DNA of 64,000 nt, taken from contig JAKQCT010000074.1 in assembly GCA_029559035.1 (NCBI GenBank), forward strand, positions 1 to 64,000, given 5' to 3'. Origin of the DNA: Acidobacteriota bacterium (GTDB lineage Bacteria > Acidobacteriota > UBA4820). A program made the position numbers and the translations under genes. The notes below the pieces were generated by a model. The model did not search any database, had not been told where the DNA came from, and saw only the letters and a list, made by a program, of their open reading frames with translations. Shown piece after piece: positions 39,589-56,315 of this stretch (positions are counted from its first letter, which is position 1; each line of letters starts with the position of its first letter).

Positions 39589-41174
39589 TCGACCACCTCG
39601 TAAGCGGTAAGGGTTTTCGAAATGCCCTTGACCTGAACATCCTTGATCTCGTTCATTTTGAATTTCCCCCTGGCGGATTCGTAGGTCTTCTGCCCCACGA
39701 CTATCTGCCCGGGTTTCGCCACGGATGACTGGAGTCGGGAGGATACGTTGACGACCTCTCCCAGCACGGTGTATTCCATTCGGCGCGTGCTCCCTATGTC
39801 ACCCGCCACTATCCTTCCGGTGTTGATACCCACCCTGAAGTTCAGCTCGGCGGCTCCCTCTGCTTGTTCGTTGTACTCCCACAGCGCCTTCCGCATGTCA
39901 AGCGCGCAGGCGATCGCCTTTTCAGCGTGGTCCTCGGTGGAGACGGGTGCCCCGAAGAACGCCATCACGCAGTCTCCGATGAATTTGTCGAGCGTGCCCT
40001 CGTGCTTGAATATGACATCCGTCATTCTCGACAGGAAGCCGTTGAGCATGTGGGCCACCTTGCTGGGTTCCATGTTCTCGCTCATCGACGTGAACCCGCA
40101 GAGGTCCGCGAAGAGGATGGTCGCCTCCAATTCCCTTGCTTCGAGAGAGGCTTCCTGCTTGCTGGATTCGAGGATCCTCTTTACTACGCTCGGGGAATGG
40201 TATCTCTGCAGCCTGCTGGTCGCGATCTTCTCGGCTTCAAGCTTGGTCCTGAGTTCCGCCTGATGGATGGCGATGGCGCAAAGCCCCGAAAGCGCGGACA
40301 CCAGGTCCAGCTCAAAATCACCATAAGCTTTGACTCTGAGAGGAGTGTCCACGTATATCAGCCCTATCACCTTGTCTTCCACCATCAGGGGTACGCAAAG
40401 GGCCGAGCGGATTCCGAGCAGCCTTATAGACGCCCCCGCCTGGAACCTCTCATCCGTCTGGGCGTCGTGGCAGAGGATGGAAACTCCGTCATTGAAGGCT
40501 TTTCTTGCTATGGTCTGGCTTATCCTTATCTTCTCGTCTATCCCTTCCGCCTGCCTGACGACTTTCGGCGTCAGTTCCCCGGTCTGTTCTTCAGCTAGCA
40601 GTATCACTCCGCGCTGGGCGCTCGTGTGCTCGAATATTATCTCCATCACCCTGTTCAGGACTTCGTCGTATGTCGTCGCTTCGATCAGTTTTTTTGAAAC
40701 GTCCGCGAGGAGACCGAGGATCCGCTGGTTCCTCTGCAGCTTGCTCAGTTCGAGAGTCGGAGCCTTTGGCGTGGCATCCGGCTTCAGATCGGCCCTGAGC
40801 ATCTCCCGTACTTCCTTCAGCGACCTCATTATCGTTCCCTCGGCCAGCGAAGGATCGGACGGACCTTCTGCAATCATGACGCTGGAGCCTGCGTCCTCCC
40901 TGTAAGACAACGGGAAGCTTCCGACCTTGATTTCGTCGCCGTCCTTCAGCAGGGACTCCGATATTTTATCGCCGTTAAGGAAAAGGCCGTTCCTGGAACC
41001 AAGGTCTTTGACCCTGAATCCTATATCCGTTTTCTCAACTTCGGCGTGTTTCCTGGAGACCGTCGGGTCGAATATTATGAGGTCGTTGCCCTCCATCCTC
41101 CCGATGGATATCTTTCCCTCTTTCAGTTCGAAGCGGTGCTCTTCGCCCTCTATCCTGTATACGAGACTGGGCAT
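39585..41174 (-). CDS. FHA-GAF class III adenylate cyclase
   Basis: 529 residues. An N-terminal FHA domain (about 1-100; GRMEGNDLIIFDPTVSRKHA) binds phosphothreonine. A linker and GAF domain (about 160-315) follow, then a class III nucleotide cyclase (about 345-529). Metal Asp residues are seen in ILFADLCGF and FIGDCVMAF; the Lys in LDKFIGD favours ATP as substrate, though the second purine-specifying position is Glu (LGEVVN) where Asp is common. It would link Hanks-kinase output (pThr) to cyclic AMP. Three such kinases and two CNB-fold proteins are encoded in the window. Confidence 0.92.
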   Translation of the reverse strand: MPSLVYRIEGEEHRFELKEGKISIGRMEGNDLIIFDPTVSRKHAEVEKTDIGFRVKDLGSRNGLFLNGDKISESLLKDGDEIKVGSFPLSYREDAGSSVMIAEGPSDPSLAEGTIMRSLKEVREMLRADLKPDATPKAPTLELSKLQRNQRILGLLADVSKKLIEATTYDEVLNRVMEIIFEHTSAQRGVILLAEEQTGELTPKVVRQAEGIDEKIRISQTIARKAFNDGVSILCHDAQTDERFQAGASIRLLGIRSALCVPLMVEDKVIGLIYVDTPLRVKAYGDFELDLVSALSGLCAIAIHQAELRTKLEAEKIATSRLQRYHSPSVVKRILESSKQEASLEARELEATILFADLCGFTSMSENMEPSKVAHMLNGFLSRMTDVIFKHEGTLDKFIGDCVMAFFGAPVSTEDHAEKAIACALDMRKALWEYNEQAEGAAELNFRVGINTGRIVAGDIGSTRRMEYTVLGEVVNVSSRLQSSVAKPGQIVVGQKTYESARGKFKMNEIKDVQVKGISKTLTAYEVVE

Positions 41175-45718: not shown

Positions 45719-47500
45719 GTGGAAAAGATCGAAAAGAACAAAAGAAATGCCGAGGGTTTTGACCTGACAACCGAAGATTTCTGCGAGATCGCCAACCAGT
45801 TCGCCGCTCAGGGCCGATACGAGGAAGCCATCAAGCTTTACGAAAGAGCCATCAAGATATACCCCGAGAGCCTCGCCCTGAAGATAAGCCTCGGCAAGAC
45901 CAGGAACCTTCTCAAGGAGAAGGATGAAGAGGAAAAGACAAAGCTCCTGGAGAAGTTCAAGGACGAGAGGGCGAGGAGGGACCTCCTCAGCTCCCAGTTC
46001 ACCTCCATGGGGCTGATATTCCTCAACAAGAACCAGGAGCAGAAGGCCCAGGAATGCTTCCGCCTTTCGCTTTTCCACAATCCCAACCATATCGGCAGCA
46101 GGCTGGAACTCGCGAAAAGCTATTACAAGAACAACGATTTTCCGAGCTGCGTGAAGGAGCTGAAACACCTCATATCGGTCGATCCGTTCGTCCCGGAGGT
46201 CCACGCTCTGCTGGGAAGAGCCCTTTTCTACCTGAAGAACTACAAATCGGCCCTCAATTCCATCGTTGACTCGATGATCCTTGACAACGCCGCGCACAGG
46301 TCGACCCCGTCCGAGATCCACGAGAAGTTCAAGTACCTCCTCGAGAAGCTGGGCATCCATAACAGGGTGGAAAGGAACGATCTCGTCAAATCGAGGCTCG
46401 ACCTCTTCAACCAGTGCGTCCAGAAGCTAGACCTGGAAAAGGAGGCGGTGCTGGGCAAAGTGGGCATAAGGGGCATGAAGGACCTGATGAAGCCCAAGGT
46501 CGACGATTCCATCCGGCAGGACCTTCTCAAACTGGCCCTGCGACTGAAAGTGTTCCCTCTCCTCAAGGAGCTCAACGACGAGAACCTGTTCACGATCGCC
46601 AAAAAGGTCCGGGAGATAACGCTGAAGCCCGGCGAAATGGTGTTCGACGAGAACGACGAGGGAGACGACCTCTACCTTCTGGAAAAAGGCTCCATAAAGA
46701 TAAAAAAGGAAACACCTTTCGGCGAGCAGGCCCTGTCGCGGATAACGGCGGGGGACTTTTTCGGGGAGATGAACTTCATCGATCCCGCTTCCAGGAGCGC
46801 GGACGCGGTCTGCGAGGAGGACGTGAGCCTCTTTTCCGTGAAGCGCAGCGAACTGGAGGTCCTTTTCGAACAGAGCAAGGAAGTGGCTGTCCAGTTCTAC
46901 TGGCAGTTCTGGAAATCCCTCTCCAGGAGGACGAGGGAGGCCAACAACATGCTCAAGACGTTCTTCGAGGGAAGCGCGGGCGGCCCCAAGGCGGCGATGA
47001 GCCAGGAAGAGGTCTCGAGGTCCAAGAACATTTCCATCGAACTGGACAGGAAGATCCAGCTCCTGCAGGACAGGGGCTTGTCCGCGAAAGAGCTGAGGCT
47101 TCTCGCGGCGTTCTCGAAGGAAGAGCTTTACAACCGCGAGGACCTGATATTCAGGGAAGGGGACGAGGGAGACAAGCTTTACATCATCCTCGACGGCAAG
47201 GTCAGGATAACCAAGCACATACCCGGGGCGGGAGAGGAAGCTCTCGCGATCCTGGAAAAAGGCGACTTCTTCGGAGAGATGGCGCTGATCGACAACCAGC
47301 CCCGCTCGGCAGACGCGAAGGCCCACACCAACGGCACGACCGTCCTTACGATCTCGAGGCAGGTGCTGAACGAGATCCTCTCGGTGGACATCGAAAGCGC
47401 CCACCAGTTCCTTTCGATACTGTGCAGGATACTTACCCAGAGGCTCAGAGAGATAAACCTCAAGATAATACAGTGGAGGCTCATGTCGGGAGGTTTCTGA
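45719..47500 (+). CDS. TPR protein with two cyclic-nucleotide-binding domains
   Basis: 593 residues from a GTG at 45719 with GGGAGGAG upstream. TPR-like helices occupy about 15-165. Two CNB domains follow: one near 285-400 with FFGEMNFIDPASRSADAV and one near 465-585 with FFGEMALIDNQPRSADAK. Both have the phosphate-binding cassette core, including the key Arg (RSA), so both should bind cAMP or cGMP. There is no DNA-binding or enzymatic domain, so output must be through protein contacts. A cyclase gene lies 4.5 kb away. The following nnrD gene starts 23 bases after its stop. Confidence 0.93.
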   Translation: MEKIEKNKRNAEGFDLTTEDFCEIANQFAAQGRYEEAIKLYERAIKIYPESLALKISLGKTRNLLKEKDEEEKTKLLEKFKDERARRDLLSSQFTSMGLIFLNKNQEQKAQECFRLSLFHNPNHIGSRLELAKSYYKNNDFPSCVKELKHLISVDPFVPEVHALLGRALFYLKNYKSALNSIVDSMILDNAAHRSTPSEIHEKFKYLLEKLGIHNRVERNDLVKSRLDLFNQCVQKLDLEKEAVLGKVGIRGMKDLMKPKVDDSIRQDLLKLALRLKVFPLLKELNDENLFTIAKKVREITLKPGEMVFDENDEGDDLYLLEKGSIKIKKETPFGEQALSRITAGDFFGEMNFIDPASRSADAVCEEDVSLFSVKRSELEVLFEQSKEVAVQFYWQFWKSLSRRTREANNMLKTFFEGSAGGPKAAMSQEEVSRSKNISIELDRKIQLLQDRGLSAKELRLLAAFSKEELYNREDLIFREGDEGDKLYIILDGKVRITKHIPGAGEEALAILEKGDFFGEMALIDNQPRSADAKAHTNGTTVLTISRQVLNEILSVDIESAHQFLSILCRILTQRLREINLKIIQWRLMSGGF

Positions 47501-49520: not shown

Positions 49521-49567
49521 CATGACGGCCTTTTTGTTCCATATTTTTTAGGCTGGAGGTGAGATTA

Positions 49568-50377
49568 TTGGCTGAAGGGCCGACGCTCAGGATCGACAAC
49601 CTGCCGCTGGAGGATTTCTTCACCATCCTTTCGCAGCACGAGAGGGACGTGAGGATCGGATACCTTCCGAAACCTTCCTTTCTCAAAGAAGTCAAGCTGG
49701 AATTCCTCTGGCAGGGCGAAGCCCTCGGCGCGCCGGTGCACATAACGCTTTACTGCATGGAAGAGACCGACCCCCTGAGCGAGATCACGGAAGCTTTCGT
49801 CATAATGGCTACCAGGAGCGAAGCTGCCAGGGCGGTGATTCCACTTTCGAAGAAGCTTCGGGAGTGTCTCGCCTCTATAAAGGAGCCCTCCCTTTTCAGG
49901 GTGGACCCGAAGTACGGGATCGTCCACGGATCATGCGTCGAACCCGTCGATCCGTCCATCCGCTGGGACAGGCCCGGGGTTTATACGGCCTTGTACCTTA
50001 CTACCGACCCGTCTTCTCCTTCTCTGGCCGTCCTTGAATACGTGCCTCCCGACCAGGAGAAAAAATTCACACAGATCTTCGAGAAGTACAACGGGGTCGC
50101 GCCGAAGAAGCCCTCGCTTCTCACTTCGGCCTGGAACAGGTTCACGCGCAAAGCCCCGCCTTCGACTGAGACGAGGACGAACAAGATAAACTACAAGCTG
50201 ATCCGCGCGCTCTCCCAGTTCCTCCAGAGAGAGCACGCGATGTCGGCGACGGTATCGCTCATCTTCAAGAACATAGAACCCGAGGACGTCCCGAAGCTGA
50301 TGGTAGACCCGGTCTTCGTGGTGGCGGCGAAAAGCGGCAACGACAGGTTCTTCGGCACCCTTTCGGAACTGACATGA
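49568..50377 (+). CDS. Unrecognised conserved-looking cytoplasmic protein
   Basis: 269 residues from the TTG at 49568, which lies eight bases after GGAGG; the GTG at 49559 would overlap that site. I recognise no domain. The protein is soluble, with balanced charge and alternating beta-like stretches (VKLEFLWQG; YTALYLTTD; MSATVSLIFKNI) and no signal peptide or membrane helix. It is coupled to the lytic transglycosylase gene (ATGA), so a part in wall turnover is possible but unproved. Confidence 0.65.
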   Translation: MAEGPTLRIDNLPLEDFFTILSQHERDVRIGYLPKPSFLKEVKLEFLWQGEALGAPVHITLYCMEETDPLSEITEAFVIMATRSEAARAVIPLSKKLRECLASIKEPSLFRVDPKYGIVHGSCVEPVDPSIRWDRPGVYTALYLTTDPSSPSLAVLEYVPPDQEKKFTQIFEKYNGVAPKKPSLLTSAWNRFTRKAPPSTETRTNKINYKLIRALSQFLQREHAMSATVSLIFKNIEPEDVPKLMVDPVFVVAAKSGNDRFFGTLSELT

Positions 50378-51026: not shown

Positions 51027-51755
51027 CTATTTTTCTCCGGGCTCGAGCTCGAAAGTGTAAAGTACTCCGAGCGAGGGCGATGTGTACATCGGAGGGAATT
51101 TCGGGAAAGGCTGGGAATCGTACACCGCCTTGACCACCGACTTGTCGAACTCGACCACCCCGCTGGACTTTACGATCTGGACTTCCTTCACGAAGCCGGA
51201 AGCTTCGATGACGAAATGGACGCTCGACGTGTATTTCTTCTTTGAATAGGGCTTTCTCCAGTTGGCCTTCAGGGCGTTCTCCAGCCTCGCCTTGTACCAC
51301 TCGTATTCGAAATCCTCGGCGTCGAGGAGAAGTCCCCTGCCCTTTCCACCGAGCCCCGCCTTTCCGGATCCTCCGAGCCCCACGGCCTTGCCTTCCGGAT
51401 CGGGGTTCTTCACCGGGCTTTTTCCCGGTTCCGCAGTTTTCTTTTCATCCGGAAGCGTGGTTTTCGGAGGTTCTTTCGCGTTTTTCTTCTCCGGTTCCGA
51501 CAGGCTTTCCGTTCTGCCGCCCGGTGTTCCCGAAAGCGCGCCGCCGAACCCTTCCGGGAGTTCGACGATCCTTACCATCACCGGCACAGGCTTGGCGGGA
51601 GTTATCGTGAAGAATCCCTGGTGCGCGAGGATGACGAACGCCGCGAAGTGGATCAGCGTGGATGCGATCACAGAGAACGGCAGTATCGCGTGGTAGGGGT
51701 TGTCATGGCTTCCGCCGTTCCTCGGTTTTTGTGGGGCCCATGCAGCCGCCGGCAT
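51027..51755 (-). CDS. TonB/TolA-type energy transducer
   Basis: 242 residues: a cytoplasmic N-terminus, one membrane segment (about 25-47), a Pro/Lys/Gly/Glu-rich periplasmic linker (about 70-140) and a C-terminal TonB-like domain (ENALKANWRKPYSKKKY, VHFVIEASGFVKEVQIV). It would span the periplasm and pass proton-motive force from an ExbB/ExbD pair to the outer membrane. The exbD gene is immediately upstream with a six-base gap; an exbB/tolQ gene is not found next to it. Confidence 0.88.
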   Translation of the reverse strand: MPAAAWAPQKPRNGGSHDNPYHAILPFSVIASTLIHFAAFVILAHQGFFTITPAKPVPVMVRIVELPEGFGGALSGTPGGRTESLSEPEKKNAKEPPKTTLPDEKKTAEPGKSPVKNPDPEGKAVGLGGSGKAGLGGKGRGLLLDAEDFEYEWYKARLENALKANWRKPYSKKKYTSSVHFVIEASGFVKEVQIVKSSGVVEFDKSVVKAVYDSQPFPKFPPMYTSPSLGVLYTFELEPGEK

Positions 51756-51761
51756 CCGGGC

Positions 51762-52178
51762 CTACTTGTTCGGGGGAGGTTCCGTCGCGAGCCCGACCGT
51801 CTCTATCCCCGCGAGCTTCACCTCGTCGATGATGGACATCACGCTGCCGTAAGGAACGTTCCTGTCGGCGAAGAGATAGATCGTCTTGTCCTGCCTTCCC
51901 GAAAAGATCTGCTCGAGGTAGCCCTTCATCAGGTTCCTGTTCACCGGCTGAGAATTGAAATAGACGTAGTTCTTGTCCTTGGGGATCGTGAGGATGATCC
52001 TCTCCGCTCCGCTTATGTTGCTCGTCGCCGATTGGGGAAGGTTCACGTCTATCCCTCTCTCGAAGAGGGGGGTCGTTATCATGAAGATTATCAAAAGGAC
52101 CAGCATCACGTCGACGAGAGGGGTGACGTTGATGTCGGAAACGGGAGCGCCCTCTTCCCTGAAAGTCTGGAACGCCAT
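51762..52178 (-). CDS. exbD: ExbD/TolR biopolymer transport protein
   Basis: 138 residues. INVTPLVDVMLVLLIIFMI is the ExbD signature with the proton-relay Asp in the membrane helix; the periplasmic domain ends GIETVGLATEPP. It works with ExbB and TonB. Its partner exbB is absent from the immediate operon, where an AmrS gene takes that place. Confidence 0.95.
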   Translation of the reverse strand: MAFQTFREEGAPVSDINVTPLVDVMLVLLIIFMITTPLFERGIDVNLPQSATSNISGAERIILTIPKDKNYVYFNSQPVNRNLMKGYLEQIFSGRQDKTIYLFADRNVPYGSVMSIIDEVKLAGIETVGLATEPPPNK

Positions 52179-52192
52179 CTTCTATCCTCCAA

Positions 52193-53194
52193 CTATCCGA
52201 AACAGCCGGGCAGCTCGTTCCCGCAGGCTTCGCAGCGTCCGCCGTCAAGCGCGACGGAAAGAACGGAGAATCCCAGCCGCTCAATGACCATTTTCCCACA
52301 TTTCGGGCAAATTGTATTCTCCCCTTTCCCGGCGATGTTCCCTGTATAAATGAACACGAGGCCCGCGGCTTCCCCCGCGCGCCTCGCCCGGTCGAGAGAA
52401 TCGACCGGCGTGGTCGGCCTGTCGAGCATCCTGTGGTCCGGATGGAAGCGGGATACGTGCCAGGGGATATCTTTCGATCTCGACGCGATGTGCTTGGCAA
52501 TCGCTCCAAGCTCTTCATCCGAATCGTTGAGCCCGGGGATGACGAGAGTGGTTATCTCCACCCAGACCCCCGCTTCAAGAAGATTGTCCATGCCTTCGAG
52601 GACCCCGTTCAACCTCGCTCCGCAGAACTTCCCGTAGGTGTCGTCGCTGAAAGATTTCAGGTCCACGTTCGCCGCGTCGAGGAATTCCTTCGTGTCACGG
52701 GCGGCTTCCTTGGTGATGTATCCGTTGGTCACGAAAATGTTCCTGAGCCCCTTGCTCCTCGCCGTCACTCCGGTTTCGAAGGCCGTCTCGAAAAACACCA
52801 CCGGCTCGGTATACGTGTAGGAAATGGACCTGCACCCGCTTTCGAGAGCCGCCCCGACGACCTTCGAGGGTTCCACTTCCACCCCGGGGACATCCCCCCG
52901 CCCGAGCTGGCTTATCGAATGGTTCTGGCAGAAGGAGCACCTGAAATTGCACCCGGCGGTCGCTATCGACATCGACATCGTCCCCGGAAGGAAATGGAAC
53001 AGCGGTTTTTTCTCGACCGGGTCCACGTTCGCGGCGACCAGCCTGTTCCTTACCAGGCTGAAAAGCTTCCCTTTCCGGTTCTCCCTGGCCGAGCACACTC
53101 CGCGCTTCCCTTCGGCGATAACGCACCTGTGATGGCAGAGGCAACACCTGACTTCTGAGTTTTCTAGGCTTTCGTAATGGGAAGCTTCGAGCAT
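52193..53194 (-). CDS. amrS: AmmeMemoRadiSam system radical SAM enzyme
   Basis: 333 residues. An N-terminal Cys cluster (CCLCHHRCVIAEGKRGVC) is followed by the radical-SAM motif CNFRCSFCQN, then IATAGCNFRC context, YTYTEPVVFFE and HVSRFHPDHRM. A C-terminal CPKCG/CEACG pair may be a zinc ribbon. The family is usually encoded near AMMECR1 and MEMO genes, but neither is in the window. Its substrate is not established. Stop and start spacing suggests one transcript with PBP1A and exbD. Confidence 0.93.
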   Translation of the reverse strand: MLEASHYESLENSEVRCCLCHHRCVIAEGKRGVCSARENRKGKLFSLVRNRLVAANVDPVEKKPLFHFLPGTMSMSIATAGCNFRCSFCQNHSISQLGRGDVPGVEVEPSKVVGAALESGCRSISYTYTEPVVFFETAFETGVTARSKGLRNIFVTNGYITKEAARDTKEFLDAANVDLKSFSDDTYGKFCGARLNGVLEGMDNLLEAGVWVEITTLVIPGLNDSDEELGAIAKHIASRSKDIPWHVSRFHPDHRMLDRPTTPVDSLDRARRAGEAAGLVFIYTGNIAGKGENTICPKCGKMVIERLGFSVLSVALDGGRCEACGNELPGCFG

Positions 53195-53195
53195 C

Positions 53196-55724
53196 TCAGT
53201 CTTTGGACCTGATGTACTCGACCACCGCCCCGCACCTTATGGAGCCGTCCTTCGGAAGTTCGCTGTAAGCGCCCTCGGCGGCCTGCCCAGGCTCTTCCTG
53301 AGGATCGACCTCGACGGTCCTCGCCTCGCCGTTCCAGGTGATCTGGAGCTGCTCCCTTCCCGTCCTCGAAAGGACCGACGGATGGAGCGAGATGAGCGCG
53401 TCCAGGTCGTCAGGCGGGATGTCCAGCCTGCCTCCCTTGAAATGGTACTGCTGCATGAAATAGGGCAGCCTTAGCCTCTCGTGCGCTTCCGCGCTGCATA
53501 CCATCTGGGGCTCCCTGCCTTTTATGAATGGTTCCTCCACCATGCTCCTGCAGGGAGAGTCCATTCCCGCCCTCATGCCCGTGTCGGCGCACACGGGAAG
53601 ATAGATTATGTTCCTGGGCACCTGCCAGTTCGCGCTCTCCTGGCCCGCCGCGGCCACCTCCATGTACTTCCTCCAGATTGGCAGCGCTGTTCTGGATCCC
53701 GTCTCCATCGAGCCCAGGGATTTGTGGTCGTCCCTTCCCGTCCAGACCCCCGTCACGATGTTCGGATTGAACCCCATGAACCACGCGTCGGTGTAGTCGT
53801 CCGTCGTGCCGGTCTTCCCCGCGAAGAATCCCTTCATGTCCGAGCAGCTCCCGGCGGTTCCCCTCTTCACCACCCCTTTCATCGCGTCCACCAGGATGTA
53901 AGCCACCTCTGGTTCCAGGACCGGTTCGTAAACGGCCCTGTGTTCCTCTATCGTGTTGCCGTTCCTGTCCTCTATTTTCTGGATGTAGTAGGGGCTTATG
54001 TAGACGCCGTTGTTCGCGAACGCTCCGTAGGCTCCTGTAAGTTCCCACAGCGTTATCTCGAAGGCGCCGAGCCCCATGGACGGGTAAGGCTTCAGGTCGG
54101 CCGTGATGTGCAGTTTCCTCATCAGCTCGATGACCCTTGAGTAGCCCGTTCGGTTAAGGACCCGGACCGCGCAGATGTTTACCGAATGTTCTATGGCGCG
54201 CCTCAGCGTTATCGTTCCCCTGAACCCCTTGTCGAAATCGCGGGGCATGTACCCCTGGCTGCAGAGGGCGCCCGGGCTCTCCGACCCATACAGGAACAGG
54301 GTGGGCTGGTCGATCACGGTGTCGGAGACGTTGTAGTGATCCCTGAACGCGGTGGCGTAAATGAGAGGCTTGACGGCCGAACCGGTCTGCCTCTTCGCCT
54401 GCATGACCCTGTTGAACATCGTCGTCTCGAAATCTGAACCGCCCACGAGCGCGGCGATCTCCCCCGTTTTCGCGTTCATGGAGAGGAGCGCCGCCTGCGC
54501 TTCCGAAGGATCGTCAAGCTGAAGTTCCAATGGATTGAGGCTCGCCACATTGACGAGGATCCTGTCGCCCTCCTTGAAAACGATCCCGGGAGTCACGCTC
54601 GGGTACCATTTGAAATTCTGTTTAACCATATCGTATGTTCCGCCGCCCAGGGAGACAGTCAGCTCTGACGGGCCCGCGCCCACAACCGTCGCCCAGTAAC
54701 TCTCCCCGGCCCTGAGGTCGTCATCCTGATGTTCGGCGGGAGCGCCTTCCCCTCTTTTCGGCCCCCTGTAAGGACGCCTGTGCTGATAATCGCTCAGGCC
54801 GCTTCTTACCGCGCGGGCGGCGACTGCCTGCAGCCTCGCATCGATCGTGGTGTGCACTTTCAGGCCTTTTTCATATATTTGCGTCTCCCCGTATTTCCCC
54901 TCGAGGTAGATCCTTATCCGTTCCGACGCGTATGCGCCCGTTCCTTTTTCCACTTTGCTCTCGGCAAGGACCACTTTCCTTGCGGCGAGCTCTTCGTAAC
55001 GATCCCGCGAAAGCTTTCCGGTCTTCTGCATCCTTAGAAGGACCCAATCGCGCCTCTCTTTGGCGCGTTCGGGATTCTTCCTCGGCGACCAATGGGTAGG
55101 TCTCTGGATCAGGCCGGCGAGCAGGGCCGCCTCCTCGACGTTCAGCTGGATCGCCTTCTTGCCGAAATAGAACCTCGCGGCGGATTCGACCCCGTAGTGG
55201 CCGTGGCCGAAGCAGACCTTGTTCGCGTACATCTCGAGGATCTGCTGTTTGGAATAGTGCCTTTCAATGTTGAGGGCCAGGATCATCTCCTTCAGCTTCC
55301 TCGTGAAGGTTTTTTCCGGCGTGAGGAAATACTGCCTCGCGAGTTGCATGGTAAGGGTCGAGCCGCCCTGTCCGGCCTTTCTCTCGAGAAGGTCCCTGAG
55401 GACAGCCCTCATAATGCCCCTCATCGAAATTCCGTGATGTTTGTAGAAATTGGCGTCCTCGACGGCGATGAGCGCCTCAAAGAAAACGGGGCTTATCTCC
55501 GTGTAGGGGACGAGTATCCTTTTCTCCGCGCCGTATTCCTGGAGAAGGGTCCCGTCCTTGGCGTAGACCTTTGTGGTTTCCATCGGCTGGCTGAAGGCCA
55601 GGCTGTTCACCTCGGGGATCCCCCTGGTCATGAAAAAGGCGGACACCGCTCCAGCGATCAACCCCGCGACAAGCAGCACCGCGGCTGCCGCCGCGAGGAT
55701 GGAACCCTTTTCTTTACGGCCCAT
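53196..55724 (-). CDS. mrcA: Penicillin-binding protein 1A
   Basis: 842 residues, class A PBP. A membrane helix (about 8-30) is followed by the glycosyltransferase domain (about 50-230) with VEDANFYKHHGI and QGGSTLTMQLARQ, an OB-like insert, and the transpeptidase domain with SxxK in RQTGSAVKPLIYA, SVN in EHSVNIC and KTG in FAGKTGTTDDY. All catalytic residues are in place. The start overlaps the stop of the CNB-fold gene by 11 bases, so the two are translationally coupled, an unusual pairing. Confidence 0.96.
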   Translation of the reverse strand: MGRKEKGSILAAAAAVLLVAGLIAGAVSAFFMTRGIPEVNSLAFSQPMETTKVYAKDGTLLQEYGAEKRILVPYTEISPVFFEALIAVEDANFYKHHGISMRGIMRAVLRDLLERKAGQGGSTLTMQLARQYFLTPEKTFTRKLKEMILALNIERHYSKQQILEMYANKVCFGHGHYGVESAARFYFGKKAIQLNVEEAALLAGLIQRPTHWSPRKNPERAKERRDWVLLRMQKTGKLSRDRYEELAARKVVLAESKVEKGTGAYASERIRIYLEGKYGETQIYEKGLKVHTTIDARLQAVAARAVRSGLSDYQHRRPYRGPKRGEGAPAEHQDDDLRAGESYWATVVGAGPSELTVSLGGGTYDMVKQNFKWYPSVTPGIVFKEGDRILVNVASLNPLELQLDDPSEAQAALLSMNAKTGEIAALVGGSDFETTMFNRVMQAKRQTGSAVKPLIYATAFRDHYNVSDTVIDQPTLFLYGSESPGALCSQGYMPRDFDKGFRGTITLRRAIEHSVNICAVRVLNRTGYSRVIELMRKLHITADLKPYPSMGLGAFEITLWELTGAYGAFANNGVYISPYYIQKIEDRNGNTIEEHRAVYEPVLEPEVAYILVDAMKGVVKRGTAGSCSDMKGFFAGKTGTTDDYTDAWFMGFNPNIVTGVWTGRDDHKSLGSMETGSRTALPIWRKYMEVAAAGQESANWQVPRNIIYLPVCADTGMRAGMDSPCRSMVEEPFIKGREPQMVCSAEAHERLRLPYFMQQYHFKGGRLDIPPDDLDALISLHPSVLSRTGREQLQITWNGEARTVEVDPQEEPGQAAEGAYSELPKDGSIRCGAVVEYIRSKD

Positions 55725-56223
55725 ATTTTTTATAGAACTCCATGAACTGCGGGTTTTCGCACAGTGCCTGGTTGAGGGAGAATATGTCCTGGAGCTGGTT
55801 GGTCGTTCTTCTCAGCCTCCTGCAAAGCTCGAAACCGAGGTTCCTCCAGATAATGGAACCGATCAGCGGAGATTCGTCGAGGATCGAGAGGAATACGTCC
55901 CTCTCGATCGCCAGCACCACGACCTTCGACACGGTTTCCACCGTCGCGCTTGCCGGCCCGCCGTCTATGACCCCCAATTCTCCGAATATGTGGGGAGGGC
56001 CGAAGGTGGCGATGGTTATCTCCCTGCCAGCTATGTTGCGCACAACCTTTACTTCTCCCTCCTGCAGGAGGTAAAGCTTGGGAACGCTGTATCCTTCGAC
56101 CAGTATCTGGCTTCCGACCGGATGCTTCTCCATCGAGAAGGCGCCCATCAGCTTGGCGAACTCGTCAGCCTCCAGGTCCTGGAAAAGATAAATGTCGTGA
56201 GGTTTCTGTTCTTCCGCCGCCAT
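55714..56223 (-). CDS. Cyclic-nucleotide-binding-fold protein coupled to PBP1A
   Basis: 169 residues with one CNB/CRP N-terminal domain (about 12-125) and a helical tail, no HTH domain. The phosphate-binding cassette reads FGELGVIDGGPASATVE (80-96): the Glu (E82) is kept but the Arg that contacts the cyclic phosphate in CRP is Ala91. It may therefore bind another ligand or none. It is the first gene of the minus operon with PBP1A, AmrS, ExbD and TonB. I infer a regulatory link to wall synthesis. Confidence 0.88.
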   Translation of the reverse strand: MAAEEQKPHDIYLFQDLEADEFAKLMGAFSMEKHPVGSQILVEGYSVPKLYLLQEGEVKVVRNIAGREITIATFGPPHIFGELGVIDGGPASATVETVSKVVVLAIERDVFLSILDESPLIGSIIWRNLGFELCRRLRRTTNQLQDIFSLNQALCENPQFMEFYKKYGP

Positions 56224-56315
56224 AGCGAACCTCCTAACTGGAAATGTTATCCGTTTTCACGAGGTTAGTCAACAAAAGCGGGGAACAGCGAGAAGCCCTG
56301 GACCGCTTCATGTCG

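Follow-up and report, generated by a model that had tools for sequence, protein, structure and literature searches.

A CNB-fold gene overlapping and apparently coupled to the gene for PBP1A in one order of Acidobacteriota

The locus considered here lies in a 64,000-nucleotide stretch of DNA (the window) from an Acidobacteriota genome of 2.86 Mb in 99 contigs (95% complete, 11 CNB-domain matches). Five genes on the reverse strand form a compact block. At its head stands a gene for a 169-aa CNB-fold protein (55714-56223, -), followed by PBP1A, a class A PBP of 842 aa combining transglycosylase and transpeptidase (53196-55724, -); amrS, for the radical SAM enzyme of the AmmeMemoRadiSam system (52193-53194, -; TIGR04337, 340 bits, cut-off 220); a gene for an ExbD/TolR-like protein (51762-52178, -; PF02472); and one for a TonB/TolA-like protein (51027-51755, -; PF13103, 55.1 bits; PF03544, 27.7 bits). 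PBP1A carries both expected Pfam domains (PF00912 and PF00905) and matches the NCBIfam 'PBP1A family' TIGR02074 with 578.6 bits, above the cut-off of 508.75. The CNB and PBP1A genes overlap by 11 bases (55714-55724, -), the ATG of PBP1A lying within the final codons and stop of the CNB gene, and the further gaps amount to 1 base (PBP1A-amrS), 14 bases (amrS-ExbD) and 6 bases (ExbD-TonB). These distances and profile matches bear out an earlier, sequence-only reading of this DNA, which had placed the CNB gene first in the block with an 11-base overlap and amrS, exbD and tonB in the same operon. The ExbD and TonB proteins (51027-52178, -) score nearest TolR and TolA, and an ExbB-type protein without ExbD is encoded elsewhere (G000:C6). 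Both NCBIfam cut-offs were missed: the best NCBIfam match of ExbD, TIGR02801 (tolR), reached 114.6 bits against a cut-off of 127.3, and the TonB protein 31.9 bits against 59.45 for TIGR02794 (TolA).

The CNB gene is preceded by the Shine-Dalgarno sequence AGGAGG (56230-56235, -; position from sequence), with a duplex energy of -10.9 kcal/mol. Strong duplexes with the anti-Shine-Dalgarno core (-7.4 to -11.1 kcal/mol) precede the CNB gene in all 11 sequences compared, and the values for the PBP1A starts (+0.4 to -5.9 kcal/mol) lie within what random 17-mers give (mean -3.0, sd 2.9). A strong signal for the first gene and no clear signal for the second is what would be expected under translational coupling. 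Weak signals also occur at amrS (-3.2) and gltX (-4.6) of the same genome, that of ExbD being good (-9.3); a weak signal alone is thus not special, and the pattern supports coupling without being decisive. The translational coupling proposed earlier is accordingly supported by the predicted start signals, and termination-reinitiation would be the simplest route by which PBP1A translation starts.

The arrangement is conserved in related genomes. A search of 60 genomes, the window's own included, covered 12 relatives of the same family or order, and an orthologue of the CNB gene was found in 10 of them, with 43-81% identity (76-81% within the family). In all 10, which span two families and five genera besides the window's own, PBP1A directly follows on the same strand; amrS-ExbD-TonB come next in nine, and the contig of the tenth ends past PBP1A. 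An overlap of 1-11 bases is present in nine: 11 bases in G001, as in the window, 8 in G002, 10 in three genomes, 4 in one genome (with a GTG start) and 1 in three. In the remaining relative (G010) the nearest PBP1A start lies 33 bases downstream of the CNB stop. In these counts the PBP1A start nearest the CNB stop was taken, the start codons being predicted and of our choosing. The five different lengths (11, 8, 10, 4 and 1) indicate that the arrangement persists although its details vary. The sequence-only reading had suggested looking for the overlap in related genomes; the results, 10 of 10 for the pair and 9 of 10 for the overlap, rule out a pairing confined to the window's genome. The two relatives without an orthologue were rejected as counter-examples. 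In G003 (88% complete) the C-terminal tail described below, amrS and a close PBP1A orthologue were all not found, so that a true absence of the CNB gene there looks no different from a gap in the assembly. The contig of G011 (64% complete) opens within the 3′ end of PBP1A and continues with amrS-ExbD-TonB. No PBP1A-amrS block lacking the CNB gene was seen in other Acidobacteriota at 12 amrS loci outside the order (L204-L213, L215, L216), none of which had a PBP1A match on the stretch fetched, some being short contigs.

The CNB domain was recognized by PF00027 (63.5 bits, cut-off 27.5, residues 35-117), in agreement with the fold match, and no second Pfam match, hence no HTH match, was found in the protein. 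In the AlphaFold model (12-row alignment; pLDDT 83.1, pTM 0.71) the beta roll is followed by two helices, the first spanning residues 119-156 and the second, a short one, 158-167, with no DNA-binding domain beyond, the geometry being uncertain from residue 131 on, where mean pLDDT over ten-residue blocks is 61-75. A transcription factor is ruled out, since there is no C-terminal HTH by Pfam and the model ends in two helices. By sequence and model the protein is thus predicted to be cytosolic, in line with the soluble role suggested earlier, and free of a DNA-binding domain. The long helix forms the dimer in CRP; because the long helix of the CNB protein corresponds to it, the latter is probably dimeric as well. 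Where CRP would have its HTH, the C-terminal helix and tail (55717-55848, -) carry the motif LNxALxENxxFxxFYK, in which N151, L154, N157, F160 and Y164 are invariant in all 15 homologues.

A second distinctive feature is the phosphate-binding cassette, FGELGVIDGGPASATVET (55933-55986, -), where Ala91 replaces the phosphate-binding Arg, and Glu82 and Ser92 are kept. Alignment of FGELGVIDGGPASATV places Ala91 opposite the Arg of solved CNB domains such as those of PKG, confirming the replacement first noted from the window alone; all 15 homologues have A, I, S or T at this position, so that the Arg is lost across the subfamily. Elsewhere in the cassette all 15 share the Gly, 14 have the Glu (Asp in L049), the next Ser is invariant, and the ribose-binding Gly-Glu is kept within the order. 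Since the loss extends to the whole subfamily, the protein is probably not a receptor for cAMP or cGMP, and probably binds either no ligand or one that has no cyclic phosphate. Within the same genome, five other CNB domains have the Arg (L001, L002, L003, L004 and L007), as judged by cassette pattern; the check covered L001-L007, L006 giving the same motif as L003 and L005 giving none. The window also encodes a 593-aa protein (45719-47500, +) that combines TPR repeats with two CNB domains, both having the cassette Arg (the second by pattern, the first by eye); in G002 an orthologue is located close to the block (L040).

A 44-position profile of the tail detected the family in 18 of 396 Acidobacteriota genomes, namely the window's own, the 10 relatives and 7 others (8 loci). 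One more locus, in G404 (L063), was reached through a named locus; among the 10 genomes reached through loci, the family was found in one, a Thermoanaerobaculia genome. In three other phyla it was found in 0 of 297, 0 of 24 and 0 of 377 genomes (0 of 698), where the profile had no positive control. According to the sequence-only reading, CNB genes beside unrelated genes in close relatives would argue against the pairing. Within the order this is not so, the neighbour being PBP1A in 10 of 10; outside the order the neighbours are mostly different, which indicates that the subfamily is not PBP1A-specific everywhere. PBP1A is close at only one of nine outside loci (G036), about 0.9 kb downstream of the CNB gene, with an antisense PP2C phosphatase gene between. 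An SLT lytic transglycosylase gene lies downstream in G039 and G404, and in G051 past an antisense MazG gene. Other neighbours are a TPR-AIM24 gene in G074 and genes for an M20 peptidase and a VWA-FHA protein at two G071 loci; the G021 locus has no recognized neighbour. A peptidoglycan enzyme is thus encoded near four of the nine loci, several of which come from related genomes and are not independent. A 13-base overlap between the CNB homologue of G253 and a TonB-like ORF (L064, 8474-8836; L155, 475-837) is a second case of CNB overlap with an envelope gene. The tail family was also seen near a TPR gene with AIM24-like sequence at L051, L052, L063 and L154 (the Pfam check for AIM24 covering L154); in three of the four, an SLT lytic transglycosylase gene intervenes.

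What might such a protein do beside PBP1A? The transglycosylase domain coupled to the CNB gene has the top score of two or three class A matches in 9 of 11 genomes (the window's own included) and is the sole class A match in the other two. The predicted cytoplasmic segment of PBP1A comprises 7-18 residues in the order, with a net charge of +1 to +6 (MGRKEKGS in the window); this basic charge also fits the positive-inside rule. The CNB protein is acidic overall (net charge -4 to -10 in the order). Given the small size of the cytoplasmic part, the CNB protein would have to contact this very short basic peptide, the segment in the membrane or some third protein. Co-translation alone does not prove that the two proteins interact. 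An adaptor or switch of PBP1A would fit co-translation, stoichiometry and a CNB protein that is cytosolic, probably a dimer, and has neither the Arg nor a DNA-binding domain. Ribosomes would load at the strong Shine-Dalgarno sequence of the CNB gene, and PBP1A would be translated mainly by ribosomes that have just completed it, tying the amounts of the two proteins. The CNB protein would dimerize through its long helix, at the equivalent of the CRP dimer interface, and may present an acidic CNB body and a conserved tail at the position of the DNA-binding domain of CRP. Acting at the membrane, it might engage the short basic N-terminus of PBP1A or a shared partner. We tentatively favour the view, at slightly less than an even chance, that the CNB protein is a dedicated, stoichiometric and non-cAMP cytosolic adaptor or regulator of the main PBP1A of this lineage. 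A bolder version, in which a CNB switch senses a non-cyclic cytosolic ligand, such as a nucleoside or a wall precursor linked to a nucleotide, and gates its co-translated class A PBP directly from the cytosol, in an operon with a Tol-like energized pair, appears unlikely. The locus itself holds a real gene pair, conserved and coupled, whose CNB member belongs to an unstudied subfamily; its function we infer.

The most serious alternative, somewhat unlikely in our estimate, is that the CNB protein has its target elsewhere in the envelope, be it the Tol-like ExbD/TonB pair, AmrS or something unrelated, and that the block is a single envelope operon whose products are needed together. Indeed, conservation extends beyond the pair to all five genes, and the outside loci, three of nine with SLT downstream and one with an overlapping TonB-like ORF, suggest that the common thread may be the envelope. 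In the order, two MotA/ExbB-type proteins are encoded in 10 of 11 genomes and one in G002. One adjoins its own ExbDs in the window's genome (two ExbDs, L235) and in G004; the second has, on the stretch read, no ExbD in the window's genome (L236) or in G001. The lone ExbB is a possible partner for the ExbD of the block, and with the ExbD/TonB pair it possibly forms a split Tol-like system tied to PBP1A. Against action elsewhere in the envelope, the sole gene overlapping the CNB gene is PBP1A, and ExbD has a good start signal of its own.

The contrasting start signals would suit a leader cistron that merely sets PBP1A output, its protein having no role at PBP1A. This we consider decidedly unlikely. 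Two divergent, unsaturated pairs of the six CNB pairs compared gave dN/dS of about 0.16 (L041-L044) and 0.20 (L045-L048); the nearest pairs, L041-L042 and L046-L047, differ by few changes and gave about 0.19 and 0.08; and the two pairs from the window's family had saturated dS, with dN 0.15. By these substitution patterns purifying selection acts on the CNB gene, the tail beyond the overlap included; a mere leader would need neither this nor the high identity within the family.

An ordinary cAMP or cGMP receptor reporting the cyclic-nucleotide level to wall synthesis is still harder to uphold and is, in our judgement, very unlikely. In its favour, class III cyclase-type domains occur in 11 of 11 genomes of the order examined (eight matches in G000), and members of the order retain the ribose-binding Gly-Glu. 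However, the phosphate-binding Arg is replaced in all 15 homologues, which disfavours a canonical cAMP receptor, and is retained in the resolved paralogues of the same genome. As cyclase-type domains are present there, the loss of the Arg does not reflect loss of cyclic-nucleotide signalling as such. One domain of this class (PF00211) lies in the window itself (39600-40127, -), in a 536-aa open frame.

The flanks of the block are variable: upstream, DUF1848 is found in the window and G001 and other genes elsewhere, with differences even between two members of one genus; downstream, the SLT gene and the gene at 49559 accompany the block in 1 of 10 relatives, several contigs ending soon after TonB. 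The gene adjoining SLT (49559-50377, +) encodes a 272-aa protein without Pfam or NCBIfam match, with 61% identity to its counterpart in G002. Inherited synteny without functional meaning, to which conservation within a single order and varied neighbours outside it could point, is hardly credible, since the block stays while its flanks rearrange between and within genera, which argues against mere slow rearrangement, and since differing overlap geometries are maintained across two families.

In Gram-negative bacteria, the class A PBP regulators known so far (LpoA, LpoB, CpoB) work mostly from the periplasm or the outer membrane. A conserved, co-translated cytosolic partner, if true, would provide a route from the cytosolic state to a major wall synthase and a role for an Arg-less CNB subfamily. 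As a small soluble pair, it should be testable in vitro though the hosts are uncultured. Among the papers accessible to our literature search, none was found that connects a class A PBP with a CNB protein; in the available part of one report, CNB domains are fused to VanZ and not to PBPs (PMC12419801).

The fold search, which compares folds only and covers the families listed by it, identified Thermus CAP and mycobacterial CRP as the nearest folds to the CNB model (4ev0: Z 18.9 over 153 residues, rmsd 5.0; CRP/FNR-type Foldseek E 2.8e-13). CRP/FNR-type receptors (Thermus CAP 4ev0, M. tuberculosis CRP, GlxR) share with our protein the CNB fold and the long helix C; unlike them, it has no HTH, no cassette Arg, a C-terminal tail of its own and a gene linked to that of PBP1A. 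Size and fold are similar in stand-alone bacterial CNB domains of unknown role, namely 3gyd from Methylobacillus (Z 17.7, 148 residues, rmsd 2.8) and 3mdp from Geobacter (Z 17.5, 128 residues, rmsd 2.4). For the block as a whole, coordination of Tol, CpoB and PBP1B in E. coli connects a TolA-type energized system to a class A PBP, as described in the available part of PMC4458516; by comparison, no CpoB was seen in the block, and its ExbD and TonB remain under the TolR and TolA cut-offs.

A precedent for an Arg-less CNB domain with a different ligand is provided by the PKA regulatory subunits of kinetoplastids (trypanosomatids), which, in the accessible portion of the report, are gated by nucleosides, have the phosphate-binding Arg replaced, bind a ligand that is not cyclic and have an extra helix after helix C that matters (PMC10959531). 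The second ribose-binding Glu of those proteins, two residues past Gly-Glu (same portion of PMC10959531), is Gly, Ser or Ala in our 15 homologues. A nucleoside receptor of kinetoplastid type was therefore rejected, the missing Glu offering no direct support for such binding. GpsB, for its part, differs from the CNB protein in having an unrelated fold and in being Gram-positive. To our knowledge, it is not an operon partner of its PBP. It is a cytosolic adaptor of class A PBPs and, according to the available part of PMC6335420, binds the first 16 residues of PBP1, a basic segment near the membrane; 16 residues can thus suffice, and a short, basic, membrane-near segment of a PBP can be recognized by a cytosolic adaptor.
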